The position numbers and the translations under genes are program-made. A stretch of DNA of 7,345 bases from Hyphomicrobium sp. Its GTDB lineage: Bacteria; Pseudomonadota; Alphaproteobacteria; Rhizobiales; Hyphomicrobiaceae. A model generated the notes under the pieces. That model had not been told where the DNA came from, ran no database searches, and saw nothing but the letters and a program-made list of their open reading frames with translations. The stretch lies in assembly GCA_030598645.1 (NCBI GenBank), contig JAUVPN010000135.1:1-7345 (forward strand). The letters are read 5' to 3'. Shown here in pieces: positions 2,481-6,864 of the stretch (position 1 is its first letter; each line of letters starts with the position of its first letter).

Positions 2481-3103
2481 ATGCAGGAACTCTCTGAATC
2501 CTCGTAGCCCGAGTCGTAAAAGTGTGTGGAGACATTCATCAACTGGATTCGGCCGGATCGCGAACAGCGATAGTTCTGTATTGTATAATTGCGACGCGCC
2601 GCCAGGCGCTCGTTATGGCTCTAGATGATGGTCACCCATCTCTCGGTTCGCCCGGGAGCGGGAGCCCAAAGTTGTCGGGCACTCAAGAGCATAGGTTGGA
2701 GCCCGGGCAGTCTCCTTTCGGGCCTCCTATGTCCGCTTTGGGTCAAAAGCAGACATTTGATCCTGCCTCGCTGATGTCCGCTTTGGGTCAAAAGCAGACA
2801 TTTGAGCGTTCGTCGGCGATGTCCGCTTTACCCCCGAAAGCGGACATTCCCACTGACAGGAAACAGCTCCTCATAGAGCCTTTCCACAAACTTGTGGACA
2901 GCCGCGCCTTGCTGCCTAACGTAGGGTGCCCAAACCCCCTTAGATTCTTACGGACGTGTCGCGGCCACCGTAAACCAAGATTCTTGGATGCCTCCAGATG
3001 GCACAACGCGTTGCGCACCGGCTGAAATGGACGCATTGCAACGCCCGCAAGGCGCACTGTTGGCCCGAGCCTTATGGGATTGAGCTGAAGGGTTAGTAGC
3101 GCG
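2481..3103. other. 623-bp stretch without a convincing gene; carries a repeat array
   Basis: The only long plus-strand frame here (2522-3025) exists because the 45-bp repeat period is a multiple of three. An imperfect hairpin (GGAGCCCG at 2698-2705 with CGGGCCTCC at 2719-2727) precedes the array. From 2848 to 3103 I see no domain, tRNA or clear repeat. Short frames such as 2998-3096 have no ribosome binding site and resemble nothing I know. The array may lie in the 3' untranslated part of the minus-strand operon that ends at 3104. Confidence 0.6.
2729..2847 (+). repeat. Tandem array of three palindromic units, period 45 bp
   Basis: Units start at 2729, 2774 and 2819, exactly 45 bp apart: a 28- to 29-bp palindrome plus a 17-bp spacer. 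The first two carry the GGGTCA loop and one mismatch in the right arm (AGCAGACA instead of AGCGGACA). The third has the variant loop TACCCCCG and intact GTCCGCTTT and AAAGCGGAC arms. The last two units with their spacer (2774-2847, 74 bp) match, in inverted orientation, the 74-bp segment at 6769-6842. The array is a dispersed, probably structured, repeat and not protein coding. Confidence 0.88.
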
Positions 3104-3205
3104 TCAATCCTTGGTCTGCTGATAGACTACCCAAATGATCCCGCTCAGCATCACAATTTCCAATAAGCCAGTCCGCAGCACTGGTTCAGTCAGTAAGTCC
3201 GTCAT
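3104..3205 (-). CDS. 33-aa single-helix membrane microprotein, unknown function
   Basis: The frame MTDLLTEPVLRTG... ends in TGA at 3104-3106. Residues 14-28 (LLEIVMLSGIIWVVY) form one hydrophobic segment, followed by a polar tail QQTKD, as in small membrane-anchored regulators or subunits. The start at 3205 is chosen because AAAAGGGGG lies 5 nt upstream; the longer frame back to 3325 would overlap the preceding gene heavily and has no such signal. It begins 16 nt after the stop of the 79-aa gene, so it is probably the last gene of the same transcript. I do not recognise the family. Genes this small are uncertain, but the strong ribosome binding site and the amphipathic layout support it. Confidence 0.6.
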   Translation of the reverse strand: MTDLLTEPVLRTGLLEIVMLSGIIWVVYQQTKD

Positions 3206-3210
3206 GACTG

Positions 3211-3219
3211 CCCCCTTTT
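3211..3219 (-). promoter_or_regulatory. Ribosome binding site of the 33-aa gene
   Basis: On the minus strand AAAAGGGGG is followed by CAGTC and then ATG. It closely resembles the leader of the 80-aa gene (AAAAGAGGGGGTAGTT before ATG), which suggests a shared origin or a shared translation level. It decides the start at 3205. Confidence 0.65.
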
Positions 3220-3221
3220 GT

Positions 3222-3461
3222 TCATTGCAGCAGCCCTGATCCCCTGTCGTCTTCGTGGCTGTCGGCGACTTCGAGCGCCTTCTGGTAAAGCTTGATCCGC
3301 GAGCGCCGAAGCTCGCGGGGCTCAATCGATGATAAGATGCCCACCATCGACGTTATTAGGGCTTCGAGGCAGCCTTCCCTGGTGATTGGACCGTCTGACG
3401 AGTCATAGGCATCGATCACATCCGATATCTTTGCATTCAGACGCTCAGCGTGATCGGCCAT
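3222..3461 (-). CDS. 79-aa helical hypothetical protein, translationally coupled
   Basis: The sequence starts MADHAERLNAKISDVIDAYD and looks almost entirely helical: one helix at 3-20, a polar turn SSDGP, a second at 28-45, and a long basic helix at 48-67 (ELRRSRIKLYQKALEVA). There is no signal peptide or membrane helix. The start at 3461 is preferred over the ATG at 3491 because GAGGG (3469-3473) lies 7 nt upstream and because its ATG shares one base with the upstream gene's stop codon (TGATG), a classic coupling arrangement. The stop TGA is at 3222-3224. The family is not recognised. It could be a small binding partner of the preceding 80-aa protein, to judge only from the coupling. Confidence 0.75.
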   Translation of the reverse strand: MADHAERLNAKISDVIDAYDSSDGPITREGCLEALITSMVGILSSIEPRELRRSRIKLYQKALEVADSHEDDRGSGLLQ

Positions 3462-3703
3462 CAGTGTGCCCTCGATACTGCGTCTTGCCACTCGTTGGTG
3501 GTTGACAGGCCCAATTCCGTAACCCGAACCCAGGTCGTTTCATCGACAAGTTTGAACTCCGCCAACCCGTCGCACTGCATCCTGAGCATGAGAGCGGCGA
3601 ACTCGCTGTCGTTGAGGTCCGGCATCTCTCGCCTCAGGTCGTCCGTGAGAATCCATCCGTCCTTACGAAGAGCGCATTCGCTCGTTCCCTGAAACTGAGC
3701 CAT
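3461..3703 (-). CDS. 80-aa small protein, possible winged-helix fold
   Basis: The sequence starts MAQFQGTSECALRKDGWILT. After a short polar start come a helix at 19-27 (LTDDLRREM), a second at 31-45 (NDSEFAALMLRMQCDG), and a strand-turn-strand at 47-62 (LAEFKLVDETTWVRVT). That order, helix-helix then a beta wing, is what compact winged-helix domains show, so DNA binding is possible; this is a pattern reading, not a family match. The start at 3703 is supported by GAGGGGG five nucleotides upstream. It lies 36 nt after the stop of the 434-aa gene and its TGA overlaps the next ATG, placing it in the middle of the operon. No membrane segment is visible. Confidence 0.78.
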   Translation of the reverse strand: MAQFQGTSECALRKDGWILTDDLRREMPDLNDSEFAALMLRMQCDGLAEFKLVDETTWVRVTELGLSTTNEWQDAVSRAH

Positions 3704-3708
3704 AACTA

Positions 3709-3715
3709 CCCCCTC
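3709..3715 (-). promoter_or_regulatory. Ribosome binding site of the 80-aa gene
   Basis: GAGGGGG on the minus strand, then TAGTT, then ATG at 3703. It is unusually strong and G-rich. It shares the AAAAG(A)GGGGG-N5-ATG form with the 33-aa gene, and GGGGG-N5-ATG with the 39-aa gene. Confidence 0.7.
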
Positions 3716-3739
3716 TTTTCACTCACTGAGGCCAAGTGG

Positions 3740-5044
3740 TTACAAAGAACCCGCAAAGCGCACATTTACGAGTTGAATAATGTCGTTACGCTCGCGCGTA
3801 AAAACGTCGGTTCCCTTAAAGACCTGCTTTATCCGTTCGGTAAAATCGTATGGCGTCAGAGGAGGCGCGCGATGATGCTGACACCAAGCCTCATAGTCGA
3901 GGTATACGTCGCTGAATGGGACCGCCGTGCCCCCGCGCTCCTCAAGCCGATCAACTACGTATTCATAAACCTTCCGCGTTGGCGTCAGCGCCGATAAATG
4001 ACGTCCGCGCGCCAAACCTCTTCCATGCATCTTAGGCATCGGCTTGGGCGATGTAGCTGCGGGTTGGCACGCCTTGGGGCGCATAAGCGCGAGCGCCACA
4101 AAAGCAAACGCAATCAACAGTTCTAGAAACGCTGCGAGCGCAAACTTCTGCCAGGTCGCTGCTGTAACGGCGGTCACGTTGGGAAACCGGAAAAGCGGCG
4201 TGTGCTCCGCCACCTCAGTCTGCAAGTCTTTCGGCGGCGCGGCTTCGGCGCGGGGCGTTTTGATCACTGGCGTTGAAGCTTCTTCGGTGCGCGGCGTCTC
4301 GATCACTGGCGATGGGGTTTCTTCGGTGCGCGGCGTCTCGATTACTGGCTTCGGGGCGTCGGCAAGCCGCATCTGGATCATGGCGCGCTCAACTCTGAGC
4401 GCGTTGACGCGTTCAGTTGCCGCTCGGTTCTTTTTTGCTTCCTCGACGGCCGCAAGCGCCTGGCGCTCATCGGATTCGCGTTGGCGACATGGATTGCTCT
4501 CGCTGCTGCGACTCGATGAGCATGCCGCCTCGCGGCTCTCCTTTGCTGCGGCCGCCGCCGTTTTCGCAGCCTCAACCACCGCGGCGGTAATCATTTCATA
4601 GTCACGCAGGCCGGCCAGCTCGCGTTGAATGCGATCTAAGGCGTCGCGGTCCTCTGCATACGGATCGAAGACCTTGATGGGTTCCACGTCGGGTTCAGGT
4701 ACGGGTTCCACCGGCGGTTCGTCGTAGAGTTCCACCGGCGGTTCGTCGTAGCGTTCTTGAACCGCACGTAACGTGATTGAAAGAGTTGCCCCTAGGGCTA
4801 CGAGCGCCAAGAACCCCACGAAGATCGAGCCCGCGCGACTACGCTGCCAGAGGTACACAGCGATGGCGGGGTCAACCAGACCGCCAATTGCAAATAGCGC
4901 GAAGATGAGTGCAACGACGGCGCCGCTCGCGGGCGCACCGCTCGACACGTAGCCATAGCGGGCTACGAGCCCCACGACGATCATGCCCGCCACGACGGCG
5001 GACGCACCGATAATTCGATGCATGATTCCCCGGCCCCCAATCAT
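3740..5044 (-). CDS. 434-aa membrane protein: three TM helices, coiled coil, Pro-rich repeats, fourth TM helix, C-terminal winged-helix-like domain
   Basis: I do not recognise the whole protein. Hydrophobic helices lie at about 11-32, 42-66 and 72-94. An acidic, proline-rich linker (99-125) contains YDEPPVE twice. Residues 131-228 are Ala/Glu/Lys/Arg-rich and probably coiled coil, broken by the Ser-rich CSSSRSSESNPC (175-186). Three 13-residue repeats (KPVIETPRTEETP type) fill 232-270, and a fourth membrane helix lies at about 301-321. Residues 354-430 form a soluble domain, with FSDVYLDYEAWCQHHR and PLTPYDFTERIKQVF, then a DIIQLVNVRF strand. This resembles the winged-helix domain at the C-terminus of P4/D5-type phage primases. 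The start codon overlaps the preceding stop (ATGA) but has no good ribosome binding site; the ATG at 5023 (residue 8) has GGGG four nt upstream and may be used. A membrane-anchored nucleic-acid-binding scaffold is the inferred role. Confidence 0.87.
   Translation of the reverse strand: MIGGRGIMHRIIGASAVVAGMIVVGLVARYGYVSSGAPASGAVVALIFALFAIGGLVDPAIAVYLWQRSRAGSIFVGFLALVALGATLSITLRAVQERYDEPPVELYDEPPVEPVPEPDVEPIKVFDPYAEDRDALDRIQRELAGLRDYEMITAAVVEAAKTAAAAAKESREAACSSSRSSESNPCRQRESDERQALAAVEEAKKNRAATERVNALRVERAMIQMRLADAPKPVIETPRTEETPSPVIETPRTEEASTPVIKTPRAEAAPPKDLQTEVAEHTPLFRFPNVTAVTAATWQKFALAAFLELLIAFAFVALALMRPKACQPAATSPKPMPKMHGRGLARGRHLSALTPTRKVYEYVVDRLEERGGTAVPFSDVYLDYEAWCQHHRAPPLTPYDFTERIKQVFKGTDVFTRERNDIIQLVNVRFAGSL
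4235..4351 (-). repeat. Three in-frame 39-bp tandem repeats within the 434-aa gene
   Basis: They encode residues 232-270 as KPVIETPRTEETP, SPVIETPRTEEAS and TPVIKTPRAEAAP. The period is 39 bp, so copy-number change would keep the frame. The segment is probably an extended spacer between the coiled coil and the last membrane helix. Confidence 0.85.
4705..4751 (-). repeat. Two nearly exact 24-bp tandem repeats within the 434-aa gene
   Basis: The units begin at 4705 and 4729 on the plus strand and match over 23 bases. They encode the repeated YDEPPVE motif (residues 99-112) just after the third membrane helix. The near-identity at DNA level indicates a recent duplication. Confidence 0.85.
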
Positions 5045-5160
5045 CGTATCAACGTTATGACCTGACTAATCACCAACCAGCCGCACACCAGGTAAGCCAC
5101 TGCGATCAGCACTAAGCAAACGTCGTGGATGACGCTGATTATGTCCGCTATGCGGTCCAT
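5041..5160 (-). CDS. 39-aa single-helix membrane microprotein, first gene of the operon
   Basis: The sequence starts MDRIADIISVIHDVC and continues with a hydrophobic span at about 12-36 (VCLVLIAVAYLVCGW, then VISQVITLI), so it is essentially one membrane helix with a short acidic/basic N-terminal tail. The ATG at 5160 is preferred because GGGGG lies 5 nt upstream. A longer version from TTG at 5223 (60 residues, polar extension) is possible, and the GGAGG/GAGGAGG runs near 5180-5215 keep it open. Its TGA overlaps the ATG of the 434-aa gene by four bases (ATGA), so the two are very likely co-translated and may interact in the membrane. I recognise no family. Confidence 0.62.
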   Translation of the reverse strand: MDRIADIISVIHDVCLVLIAVAYLVCGWLVISQVITLIR

Positions 5161-5229
5161 GTCTTCCCCCGCTTTTGCGCTTGTTGGACTGTCCTCCTCT
5201 GTTGCCTGGCCTCCTTGCTGCAAATGAAA

Positions 5230-5249
5230 TAGCGGGATTCGCTCCGCTA
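5230..5249. repeat. Short inverted repeat upstream of the operon
   Basis: TAGCGG (5230-5235) and CCGCTA (5244-5249) flank 8 nt. It sits about 70 bp before the 39-aa start, in a position suited to an operator or a leader hairpin. Confidence 0.45.
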
Positions 5250-5382
5250 CCTACACCGATTTGACCCAATCTACATTCAGCTTGCCCAGCCAAATCGCGA
5301 GCGTCAGGGATCGTTTGACCCACGCCCTAGGTCGCGATCACACGAGTCGTTGTGCCTTGCGCCGCCTCCTCGCGGGGACAAT

Positions 5383-5794: not shown

Positions 5795-6184
5795 GTGACT
5801 CCCAATGTGGACTCCGCACTAGGACCCGTTACGCGGACTCCCGACCATGACGCCCAACCCTGCGCATCAACACGGCGCCCAAAGCGGCGGCGCAAACCTG
5901 CCCCTCTCGGCAGCCTCTATCCGCAAACCGATTCCGAACCTTTGATGCACGCCATGGCGATCCTGCAACAAATCCAGATGTACGCGGAGGATGTGATTGG
6001 CACGTACATACCGCAGTCCCAACTAGAACGATTTTATGGAGAACTGTGCGAACGTGAGGGGGGGACGCCTCGGAGCTGGACTGCTATCGGCCGGCGGCTC
6101 AACGGTTTGACGGATCGAAGAAGGCTCAAACGCAACGGGAAGCAGTTTCGCGCTTACCGCATTCCGCGCGCACGCTCCGAGTGA
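5795..6184 (+). CDS. 129-aa basic protein with C-terminal winged-helix-like domain; start uncertain
   Basis: Residues 1-50 are polar and probably disordered, with a basic patch RRPKRRRK at 27-34. Residues 54-125 form a folded domain: helix AMAILQQIQMYAEDVI, then IPQSQLERFYGELCE, PRSWTAIGRRLNGL, and a basic strand pair RLKRNGKQFRAYRIP. The layout is that of a winged helix, with the recognition helix at about 94-105, and it resembles residues 354-430 of the 434-aa protein. DNA or RNA binding is therefore likely, perhaps as a regulator of the divergent operon (inference). The GTG at 5795 has no ribosome binding site. The frame stays open back to 5684, where GAGGGA (5714-5719) precedes an ATT; ATG at 5945 would give only the domain. 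The stop codon overlaps the first TGATGGGCC repeat. Confidence 0.65.
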   Translation: MTPNVDSALGPVTRTPDHDAQPCASTRRPKRRRKPAPLGSLYPQTDSEPLMHAMAILQQIQMYAEDVIGTYIPQSQLERFYGELCEREGGTPRSWTAIGRRLNGLTDRRRLKRNGKQFRAYRIPRARSE

Positions 6185-6203: not shown

Positions 6204-6389
6204 CACCGGCTAGCTTACGAAAAACCGTGCAAAATCAATGCGATTTGCCGGAACAAGCCTCAGGCCCTTTCCGGTCTTTCGCTGTCGGCATACATCTGTT
6301 GGTGTCGTCAAAAACCCTTGTAAAATAGGCTCTTCGTTAGGGTCAGTGTCTGTTACTGTCTCTTGAGGACGGTCCACAGCAAACTTCAA

Positions 6390-6412
6390 TTGACGGGCCA
6401 ATTGATGGGCCA
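6390..6412 (+). repeat. Second pair of direct repeats (GAYGGGCC, period 12), candidate recombinase arm sites
   Basis: TTGACGGGCCA (6390-6400) and TTGATGGGCCA (6402-6412) lie 12 bp apart, about 30 bp upstream of the integrase remnant's GTG. TTGATGGGCCA is identical over 11 bases to 6193-6203. The roughly 186 bp between the two pairs could contain an attachment core, but I see no second copy of such a core in the window. Confidence 0.55.
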
Positions 6413-6443
6413 GCTTGATTGTGCGTTTCACATGGGGGGCCTC

Positions 6444-6736
6444 GTGACGCGAAGCATTCACCGGATGACTGCCGTCAAGGTCAACGCATTGAAGCGGCCG
6501 GGCTACCACAGTGACGGCGGTGGGTTGTTCTTGAGGATCAAAGGCGGTGGCTCGAAGAGCTGGGTGTTTAGGTACGTGATCGCGGGACCGAGGCGCGAGC
6601 CGGACTTGGCCGTTACCCTGCTGTAGGACTCGCTGGAGCGCGAGAATTGGCCGAGGAGGGCCGCAGGCCAGTCGCCGCTGGCCATTAGCAGCGTGCCAAA
6701 GAGCGCCAAGCTGAGCGCGCTGACGCGGCGGCTTGA
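6444..6736 (+). pseudogene. Remnant of a P4-type tyrosine recombinase (integrase), N-terminal arm-binding domain only, frameshifted
   Basis: From GTG 6444 (GGGGGG four nt upstream; ATG 6432 is also in frame) the translation reads MTRSIHRMTAVKVNALKRPG, then YHSDGGGLFLRI, then GSKSWVFRYVIAGPRRE. This is the arm-type DNA-binding domain (DUF4102-like) found at the start of P4-family integrases. At about 6599-6601 the frame breaks, and the expected continuation appears in the +2 frame: GLGRYPAVGLAGARELAEEG, then RRPVAAGH, a TAG at 6686, then QRAKERQAERADAAA up to a TGA at 6734-6736. The damage fits one lost base in the codon after RRE plus a nonsense change. The core-binding and catalytic domains (R...HxxR...Y) are absent, so the product cannot be active. 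It marks the end of an old integrated element. Confidence 0.87.
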
Positions 6737-6768: not shown

Positions 6769-6842
6769 CCGGCCGCTTTTGGGGGTAAAGTGGACATTCC
6801 TGACGCACGCTCCAATGTCCGCTTTTGACCCAAAGCGGACAT
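6769..6842 (-). repeat. Inverted copy of the composite palindromic repeat
   Basis: 6815-6842 is the exact reverse complement of the GGGTCA-loop palindrome with intact arms. 6769-6797 is a degraded, inverted copy of the CCCCC-loop variant seen at 2819 (about 24 of 29 positions). The 17-nt spacer between them matches the inverted 2802-2818 spacer at about 13 positions. The whole is 74 bp, exactly the length of 2774-2847. It lies between the plus-strand integrase remnant and a minus-strand gene, another convergent junction. Confidence 0.82.
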
Positions 6843-6864
6843 CGTTACCCCTCACCGGATACCG

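Follow-up and report, generated by a model that had tools for sequence, protein, structure and literature searches.

A ParA-less Hyphomicrobium gene cluster with a membrane-anchored winged-helix protein: a possible offshoot of partition cassettes

Partition cassettes of the ParA kind are usually described as an ATPase, a DNA-binding partner and a centromere, and ParF-ParG of TP228 is a system of type Ib. The DNA considered here is a 7,345-nucleotide (nt) stretch from Hyphomicrobium sp. (contig JAUVPN010000135.1), the whole of which is called the window and supplies the numbering of the cluster. Its minus strand carries, at 3104-5160, five frames that include a large membrane-anchored protein ending in a winged helix. 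We give roughly even credence to the reading that a type-Ib-like partition cassette of mobile elements gave rise to this cluster as a mosaic offshoot without ParA, and that the third protein of the cassette tethers DNA to the envelope. Going by the libraries and the open-access literature searched, the wider cassette varies the ParA partition system in a way not described so far; the literature search, mostly at the level of abstracts and with few subscription papers, returned no description of the module.

Positioning of plasmid DNA at membranes by ParA-like proteins is known from StbB of R388 and VirC1 of Agrobacterium. Published accounts present stbABC of R388 as an operon of three genes, in which a DNA-binding protein is encoded together with a ParA-like ATPase and a third, orphan protein. 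The formation of polar plasmid foci close to the membrane depends on StbB; StbC is described as an orphan that has no significant homologues, and deleting it changed nothing. In Agrobacterium, the ParA-like VirC1 and the accessory factor VirC2 are described as placing the transfer intermediate at the pole. The three-gene plan of stbABC is like that of the cassettes related to the window cluster, with StbC likened to their third protein by description alone.

The link between the large window protein (434 amino acids, aa) and ParA comes from its relatives. A profile of window-type proteins alone (alignment A1; expectation value, E, of 0.001 or better) matched 14 of the 103 Hyphomicrobiaceae genomes searched, here the family genomes. 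At nine of the 14 (G076, G006, G095, G025, G092, G054, G017, G014 and G086), ParA and ribbon-helix-helix (RHH)-like genes immediately precede the membrane gene and share its strand. G037 has an RHH-like gene without ParA, and neither gene is found near the match in G001 (contig C66), G064, G058 or G062, where G058 and G062 offer little upstream sequence and the G064 match is doubtful. The ParA and RHH profiles were built from eight of the nine loci together with L025 and L031, so that the detections at those eight are by construction. Through these neighbours, the element-maintenance role that the earlier note had listed among its options is favoured. The full cassette would run from repeats through parA and an RHH-like gene to the membrane winged-helix gene, with parA of about 215 aa (ParF-like) and the RHH-like gene of about 100 aa. 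In G086, the third gene retains the winged helix and has no visible membrane helices. A ParA-RHH locus at 4487-4855 of L091 has a winged helix alone as its third gene, apparently without membrane helices.

The ParA assignment has support that does not depend on these profiles. The KGG..K motif is invariant in all 11 aligned ParAs, all 11 tested exceed the Pfam CbiA cut-off, and their profile matches ParA/ParF proteins of the PDB at about 1e-38 (ParF, 5.9e-38). NCBIfam ParA_partition was the best match of both ParAs searched, below its cut-off (140 and 127 bits vs 180). The related loci are like ParF-ParG in the length of the ATPase and its ParF match, in a following small gene that weakly resembles ParG and CopG, and in having repeats upstream of parA in most cases; they differ from it by the added membrane-anchored winged-helix gene, and the window differs further in having no ParA, partner or repeats. 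Profile searches of the PDB with the RHH-like protein gave a carboxysome-positioning B protein at E 0.0053, ParG at 0.035 and CopG at 0.13.

A repeat search found iterated palindromic motifs upstream of parA in most of nine loci examined. Within the 200 base pairs (bp) upstream of parA, CTAG occurs five times in L017 and L031, six times in L021 and L024, seven times in L020 and L022, and eight times in L018; it occurs twice in L091 and is absent from L019, L023, L049 and L082. Seven of 12 parA loci thus hold 5-8 copies, vs at most four in any of 762 other windows (hypergeometric 2.5e-14, post hoc). By a motif-free score, the value of eight of the 12 loci, L091 included, is reached by at most 20 of the 762.

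The kinship of the large proteins points the same way. In a midpoint-rooted tree of 32 proteins, in which the genomic context of window-type rows is known for the window and L001 alone, the eight window-type rows form one clade (support 97/90) inside a 16-row side (100/100), the remaining eight rows of which are all proteins of ParA-RHH trios. Two trio rows are long-branched, and the trio label requires four changes. As the window clade is nested among trio proteins, the simplest reading is that the ParA/RHH linkage was lost in the window lineage. A genome in which the two types meet is the Hyphomicrobium metagenome-assembled genome (MAG) Nau_7 (G001), which carries a window-type gene on contig C66 (L001) and, on contig C401 (L031), a single-strand series of ParA, RHH-like gene, 366-aa membrane paralogue, 38-aa homologue of the window's 39-aa protein, 80-aa homologue and 56-aa helix protein. 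L031 joins homologues of the 39- and 80-aa genes to the trio, being the one locus in which a small helix gene and the 80-aa winged-helix gene come after the full cassette.

The large protein (3740-5044, minus strand) has the architecture that the earlier note had read, as borne out by Pfam, hydropathy and a structure model: three N-terminal membrane helices (residues 10-92, 4769-5017, from Kyte-Doolittle peaks), a coiled-coil hairpin whose helices are long (residues 130-228, 4361-4657, from the model and alignment) and, after a proline-rich spacer, a further membrane helix, the fourth (residues 303-321, 4082-4138), with a winged helix at the C-terminus (residues 356-431, 3752-3979, from Pfam and the model). 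In the predicted model, the hairpin has block values of 76-95 in the predicted local distance difference test (pLDDT) and the winged helix about 70. Pfam PF03288 (Pox_D5) matches residues 358-420 with 25.9 bits against a cut-off of 21.4, and the top Foldseek matches, none better than E 0.18, are to winged helices of ORC1/Cdc6/RFX; no PDB protein matched by sequence. Three 39-nt direct repeats at 4243-4359 encode part of the spacer, the length of which varies among relatives.

The winged helix has likenesses among phage primases. The C-terminus of the L021 relative resembles the primase ends of TG1, phiC31 and related Streptomyces phages (37-41% identity, 10 records, E 4e-5 to 8e-3) and matches a primase PHROG (1.3e-4). 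Like D5/phiC31-type phage primases, the window protein has a D5 winged helix, as has the relative at L051, but it differs from a D5-type primase/helicase in that no primase or helicase domain was found in it (Pfam, up to E 1) and the winged helix is joined to a membrane anchor. No match to the 434-aa protein was found among plasmids or phages, nor any of alignment A1 in viral contigs; the membrane protein of L024 had no plasmid match, and alignment A8 had none in viral contigs.

Net charges in the window protein (+2 before the third transmembrane segment, TM3, -6 after it and +7 after TM4) fit a hairpin outside and a winged helix inside. Among 30 family proteins the net charge is positive before TM3 in 28 and after TM4 in 18, and all 30 have two cysteines, 7-12 residues apart, inside the TM3-TM4 loop (Cys175 and Cys186 in the window protein). 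Judged from sequence, this suggests that the cysteine hairpin is periplasmic and the winged helix cytoplasmic. In such a cassette, the RHH-like protein would bind the repeats upstream of parA, ParA would move the resulting complex, and the membrane protein would hold it at the envelope through its cytoplasmic winged helix, the cysteine-bearing hairpin sitting in the periplasm; inheritance of the element may be affected as a consequence. The relatedness, the order of the genes, the placing in the tree and the repeats are observations, and the topology, the DNA binding, the tethering and an effect on inheritance are inferences. If this is true, a recurrent membrane-anchored and probably DNA-binding third gene would add an envelope attachment point to partition cassettes. 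What persists in the window, without ParA and RHH, would be the anchor and the small genes; they may cooperate with a ParA acting in trans, or simply keep a passive hold on element DNA.

Several observations weigh against this partition reading. No window frame of at least 30 aa matched the ParA profile (E 0.1), the best tblastn match having E 0.046, and the window has no RHH gene; its segment 5161-5360 has a repeat score that 494 of the 762 background windows reach. Lacking ParA, RHH gene and repeats, the window is not a working cassette as it stands. ParA-free operation is common in the family: outside the profiles, 50 of 64 loci have neither ParA nor RHH adjacent, where four of the 64 came from window-type searches, the rest from broader family profiles, and several of the 50 end close upstream. 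The other 14 comprise nine with RHH only, one with ParA only (L082, which has an RHH match of E 0.0065 in another scan), two with ParA elsewhere in the locus, and two full trios, L049 and L012, the latter being the G086 locus already within the nine. The RHH assignment is weak, as none of four proteins tested has a Pfam match and non-RHH capsid proteins match the profile at E 0.11-0.41. The repeat tests were devised after the repeats were seen; CTAG clusters are absent in five of the 12 loci, among them the three added once the repeats were known (L049, L082 and L091), and L017, L023, L049 and L082 miss the motif-free mark. L001 and L032 also show no such repeats by that score. In the tree, three trio proteins fall on the opposite side, with RHH-only and orphan members, and the nesting of the window clade hinges on the midpoint root. 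Finally, 12 of the 30 proteins lack positive charge after TM4, and the model of the 434-aa protein has low overall confidence (mean pLDDT 56).

A further point against the partition reading, the passing of the Pfam VirC1 cut-off by eight of 11 ParAs, bears on conjugation. Here the ParA, the RHH-like protein and the membrane protein would bring element DNA or the relaxosome to the envelope for transfer, in the manner of VirC1/VirC2 and of StbA/StbB of R388, which we consider unlikely. Relaxase genes stand beside some members (L078 and L024 by Pfam, L072 and L075 by eye), and the published accounts of VirC1 and StbB tie ParA-like ATPases to transfer. The VirC1 match is not specific, because MipZ and CbiA models match the same ParAs; moreover, L021 has a terminase gene (Pfam), other trio loci have phage-like neighbours by eye, and none of the 12 window open reading frames (ORFs) scanned with Pfam is a relaxase. 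We know of no membrane winged-helix partner of VirC1/VirC2.

The cysteine pair in all 30 hairpins, together with the C-terminal winged helix, could also belong to a membrane-integrated regulator, in which the hairpin senses the redox or envelope state of the periplasm and the winged helices control transcription. The 80-aa protein (3461-3703, minus strand) adds to this: modelled at pLDDT 75, it is predicted to fold as a winged helix resembling MarR/HxlR/TubR proteins, including redox regulators such as HypR, and the predicted structure and its structural matches bear out the surmise that it is a second winged helix. Orphan members of the family of the large protein stand apart from ParA. Given the recurrent coupling to ParA with repeats, and that no target is known, a regulator seems to us improbable, to much the same degree as conjugation; a likeness of the large protein to ToxR/CadC-type proteins is presumptive.

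These orphan members extend the question beyond mobile elements. A profile built from five of them (L040, L051, L057 and L066 are examples of orphan loci), none of which adjoins ParA or RHH, found one match and no more (E 1e-90 or better) in each of 95 of the 103 family genomes, some of these matches on megabase contigs. Orphan C-termini matched phage primase PHROGs in three of three tested and passed the Pox_D5 cut-off in one of two (L051); NCBIfam gave one weak primase_Cterm match among three orphans. No name for the whole protein was found in Pfam, NCBIfam or PHROGs, and the tether family is unnamed in the libraries and literature searched. A tentative and rather doubtful extension of the partition reading is that, in Rhizobiales, chromosomes and mobile elements alike use DNA tethers of one membrane-anchored family: the orphan may attach the chromosome to the envelope, during budding for example; elements may use the same anchor along with ParA, an RHH-like protein and repeats; and in the window an anchor no longer tied to ParA may have been joined to small proteins of the winged-helix and one-helix kinds. 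Since these bacteria bud and nearly all of their genomes carry the paralogue once, a single gene deletion could address how their DNA is held or moved.

Within the cluster, all five frames (39, 434, 80, 79 and 33 aa) are present where they had been reported, as are the junctions in the frame list (an ATGA overlap, a 36-nt gap, a TGATG overlap and a 16-nt gap). The 39-aa gene (5041-5160, minus strand; frame list, hydropathy and homologues) and the 33-aa frame (3104-3205, minus strand) each encode a single membrane helix by hydropathy, as previously claimed, that of the former at residues 14-32. The 434-aa frame exceeds the longest open frame in shuffled DNA (maximum 288; 500 base shuffles of 2901-5300, one strand). 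Its start is probably codon 8 (5023), giving 427 aa, which is the length of the database record of this protein; codon 8 is preceded by the G-rich GGGGGCCGGGGAATC, and among 30 relatives in alignment A1 the start lies at codon 1 in eight, codon 8 in 13 and codon 11 or 21 in six, with three incomplete. The proposed G-rich ribosome-binding sites are seen before the 39-, 80- and 33-aa starts, and for the large gene before codon 8; with that start, the 39/434 junction becomes a 17-nt gap instead of the ATGA overlap. The 434-, 80-, 79- and 39-aa products are supported as genes and the 33-aa frame, a putative gene, is not: its backing consists of the helix and a preceding G-rich run, and tblastn, its one homology search, run only against the related loci collected, found no relative.

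The 434-aa protein has 30 relatives by BLAST (37-72% identity); three of these, and one from a further search, carry an organism name and are Hyphomicrobium MAGs, not the Bradyrhizobiaceae that had been proposed for comparison, and because the genes are mobile this taxonomy tells little about the host of the window. Nine relatives of the 80-aa protein and 14 of the 79-aa protein (3222-3461, minus strand, without a membrane helix) were found, with length kept in nearly all. The 39-aa protein has the 38-aa homologue in L031, whose score was reached in none of 100,000 shuffles, and a 25-aa counterpart in L001. Against the family genomes, the 39-aa protein found one match (G001:C401, E 0.0062), the 80-aa profile two clear places (G001 and G038) and two weak ones, and the 79-aa profile, in one of 103, a weak match to part of the protein (29 residues, E 0.0024). 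The relatives of the 80- and 79-aa proteins have one source-contig size (642) in common, weak evidence of their linkage, and those of the 434- and 80-aa proteins have none. On reading, the upstream extension of P0042 resembles the out-of-frame end of an 80-aa gene.

The earlier interpretation is supported in part: the five genes are not one conserved unit, and the single complex at the membrane that it proposed for their products stays conjectural. The G001 homologues of the 434- and 80-aa genes lie on separate contigs with different neighbours, and no 79-aa homologue was found in that genome by profile search. In L001, the 25-aa counterpart and the 434-aa homologue are followed by other genes; L032 (G038:C85) has the 80-aa gene and lacks the membrane gene. 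The L032 flanks match L001 on either side of the helix and membrane genes of the latter (76% over 223 bp; 97% over 66 bp), and gene content therefore seems to be shuffled between common flanks. Near-identical leaders (97% over 66 bp) stand ahead of different small genes at L001 1704-1769 and L032 2017-2082, which suggests that genes were exchanged behind one leader. Just past the operon, a convergent peptide tail (2998-3096, plus strand) is common to the window, L032 and L001 in its motif RKAHCWPxPYGIxLK, the preceding RLKxTHCNx being common to the window and L032. In a search of the 103 genomes scoring at most eight candidates per genome, the tail DNA had two clear places and one 26-bp match, and its reading as a dispersed repeat was rejected. 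A ParA remnant at 3004-3084 (tblastn with two ParAs, E 0.046-0.065) was likewise dropped, because the feature common to the three loci is the plus-strand frame.

That the cluster is a decaying remnant without function seems quite improbable to us. Such a remnant would fit the truncated integrase, the absence of ParA and RHH, the mosaic neighbours and the inverted repeats around the cluster; selection on its genes and the conservation of the 79-aa family speak against it. The ratio of nonsynonymous to synonymous change (dN/dS) is 0.16/0.52, about 0.31, for the 434-aa gene between the window and L001. For the 80-aa gene it is 0.18/0.89 against L031 and 0.22/0.80 against L032 (0.20-0.27), and 0.12/0.31 between L031 and L032. 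Values below 1 argue for function of both genes. Among the small frames, for which purifying selection had been in question, the 80-aa gene has such values; the 39-aa pair (0.55/1.0 on 27 synonymous sites) decides little.

A defence or signalling system, also among the roles first offered, is highly improbable, and a defence role found no support. Small membrane proteins with a coiled coil would suit one, but the sole PADLOC match among the five window proteins is that of the 434-aa protein to LmuB (E 0.024), the L021 ParA matches PDC-M28B of PADLOC (7.6e-4) over its first 36 residues only, and no effector domain was found in the 12 ORFs scanned with Pfam.

The surroundings agree with the earlier suggestion of a decayed integrative element. 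The Arm DNA-binding domain of a truncated integrase (6363-6626, plus strand) matches PF13356 with 32 bits against a cut-off of 27 over profile positions 2-44 of 83 and ends at a stop. Inverted arms at 2773-2843 and 6773-6843 (71 nt, 89% complementary, 3929 nt apart) flank the cluster, and together with the integrase they fit a decayed mobile region. Neither a tRNA nor an Rfam match at gathering scores was found in the window. Palindromic ATGTCCGCTTT...AAAGCGGACAT repeats occur at 1321-1350, 2729-2847 and 6773-6843. A 325-aa ORF at 1503-2480 carries an HIPKTGG motif, as known from sulfotransferases, and has no Pfam match up to E 1; a 129-aa ORF at 5795-6184 (plus strand) likewise has none, and one PHROG match at E 0.3. 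At L021 2662-5634, the product of the terminase gene has an intein-like pair of further matches, LAGLIDADG_3 exceeding its cut-off and Hint_2 falling short of its own.

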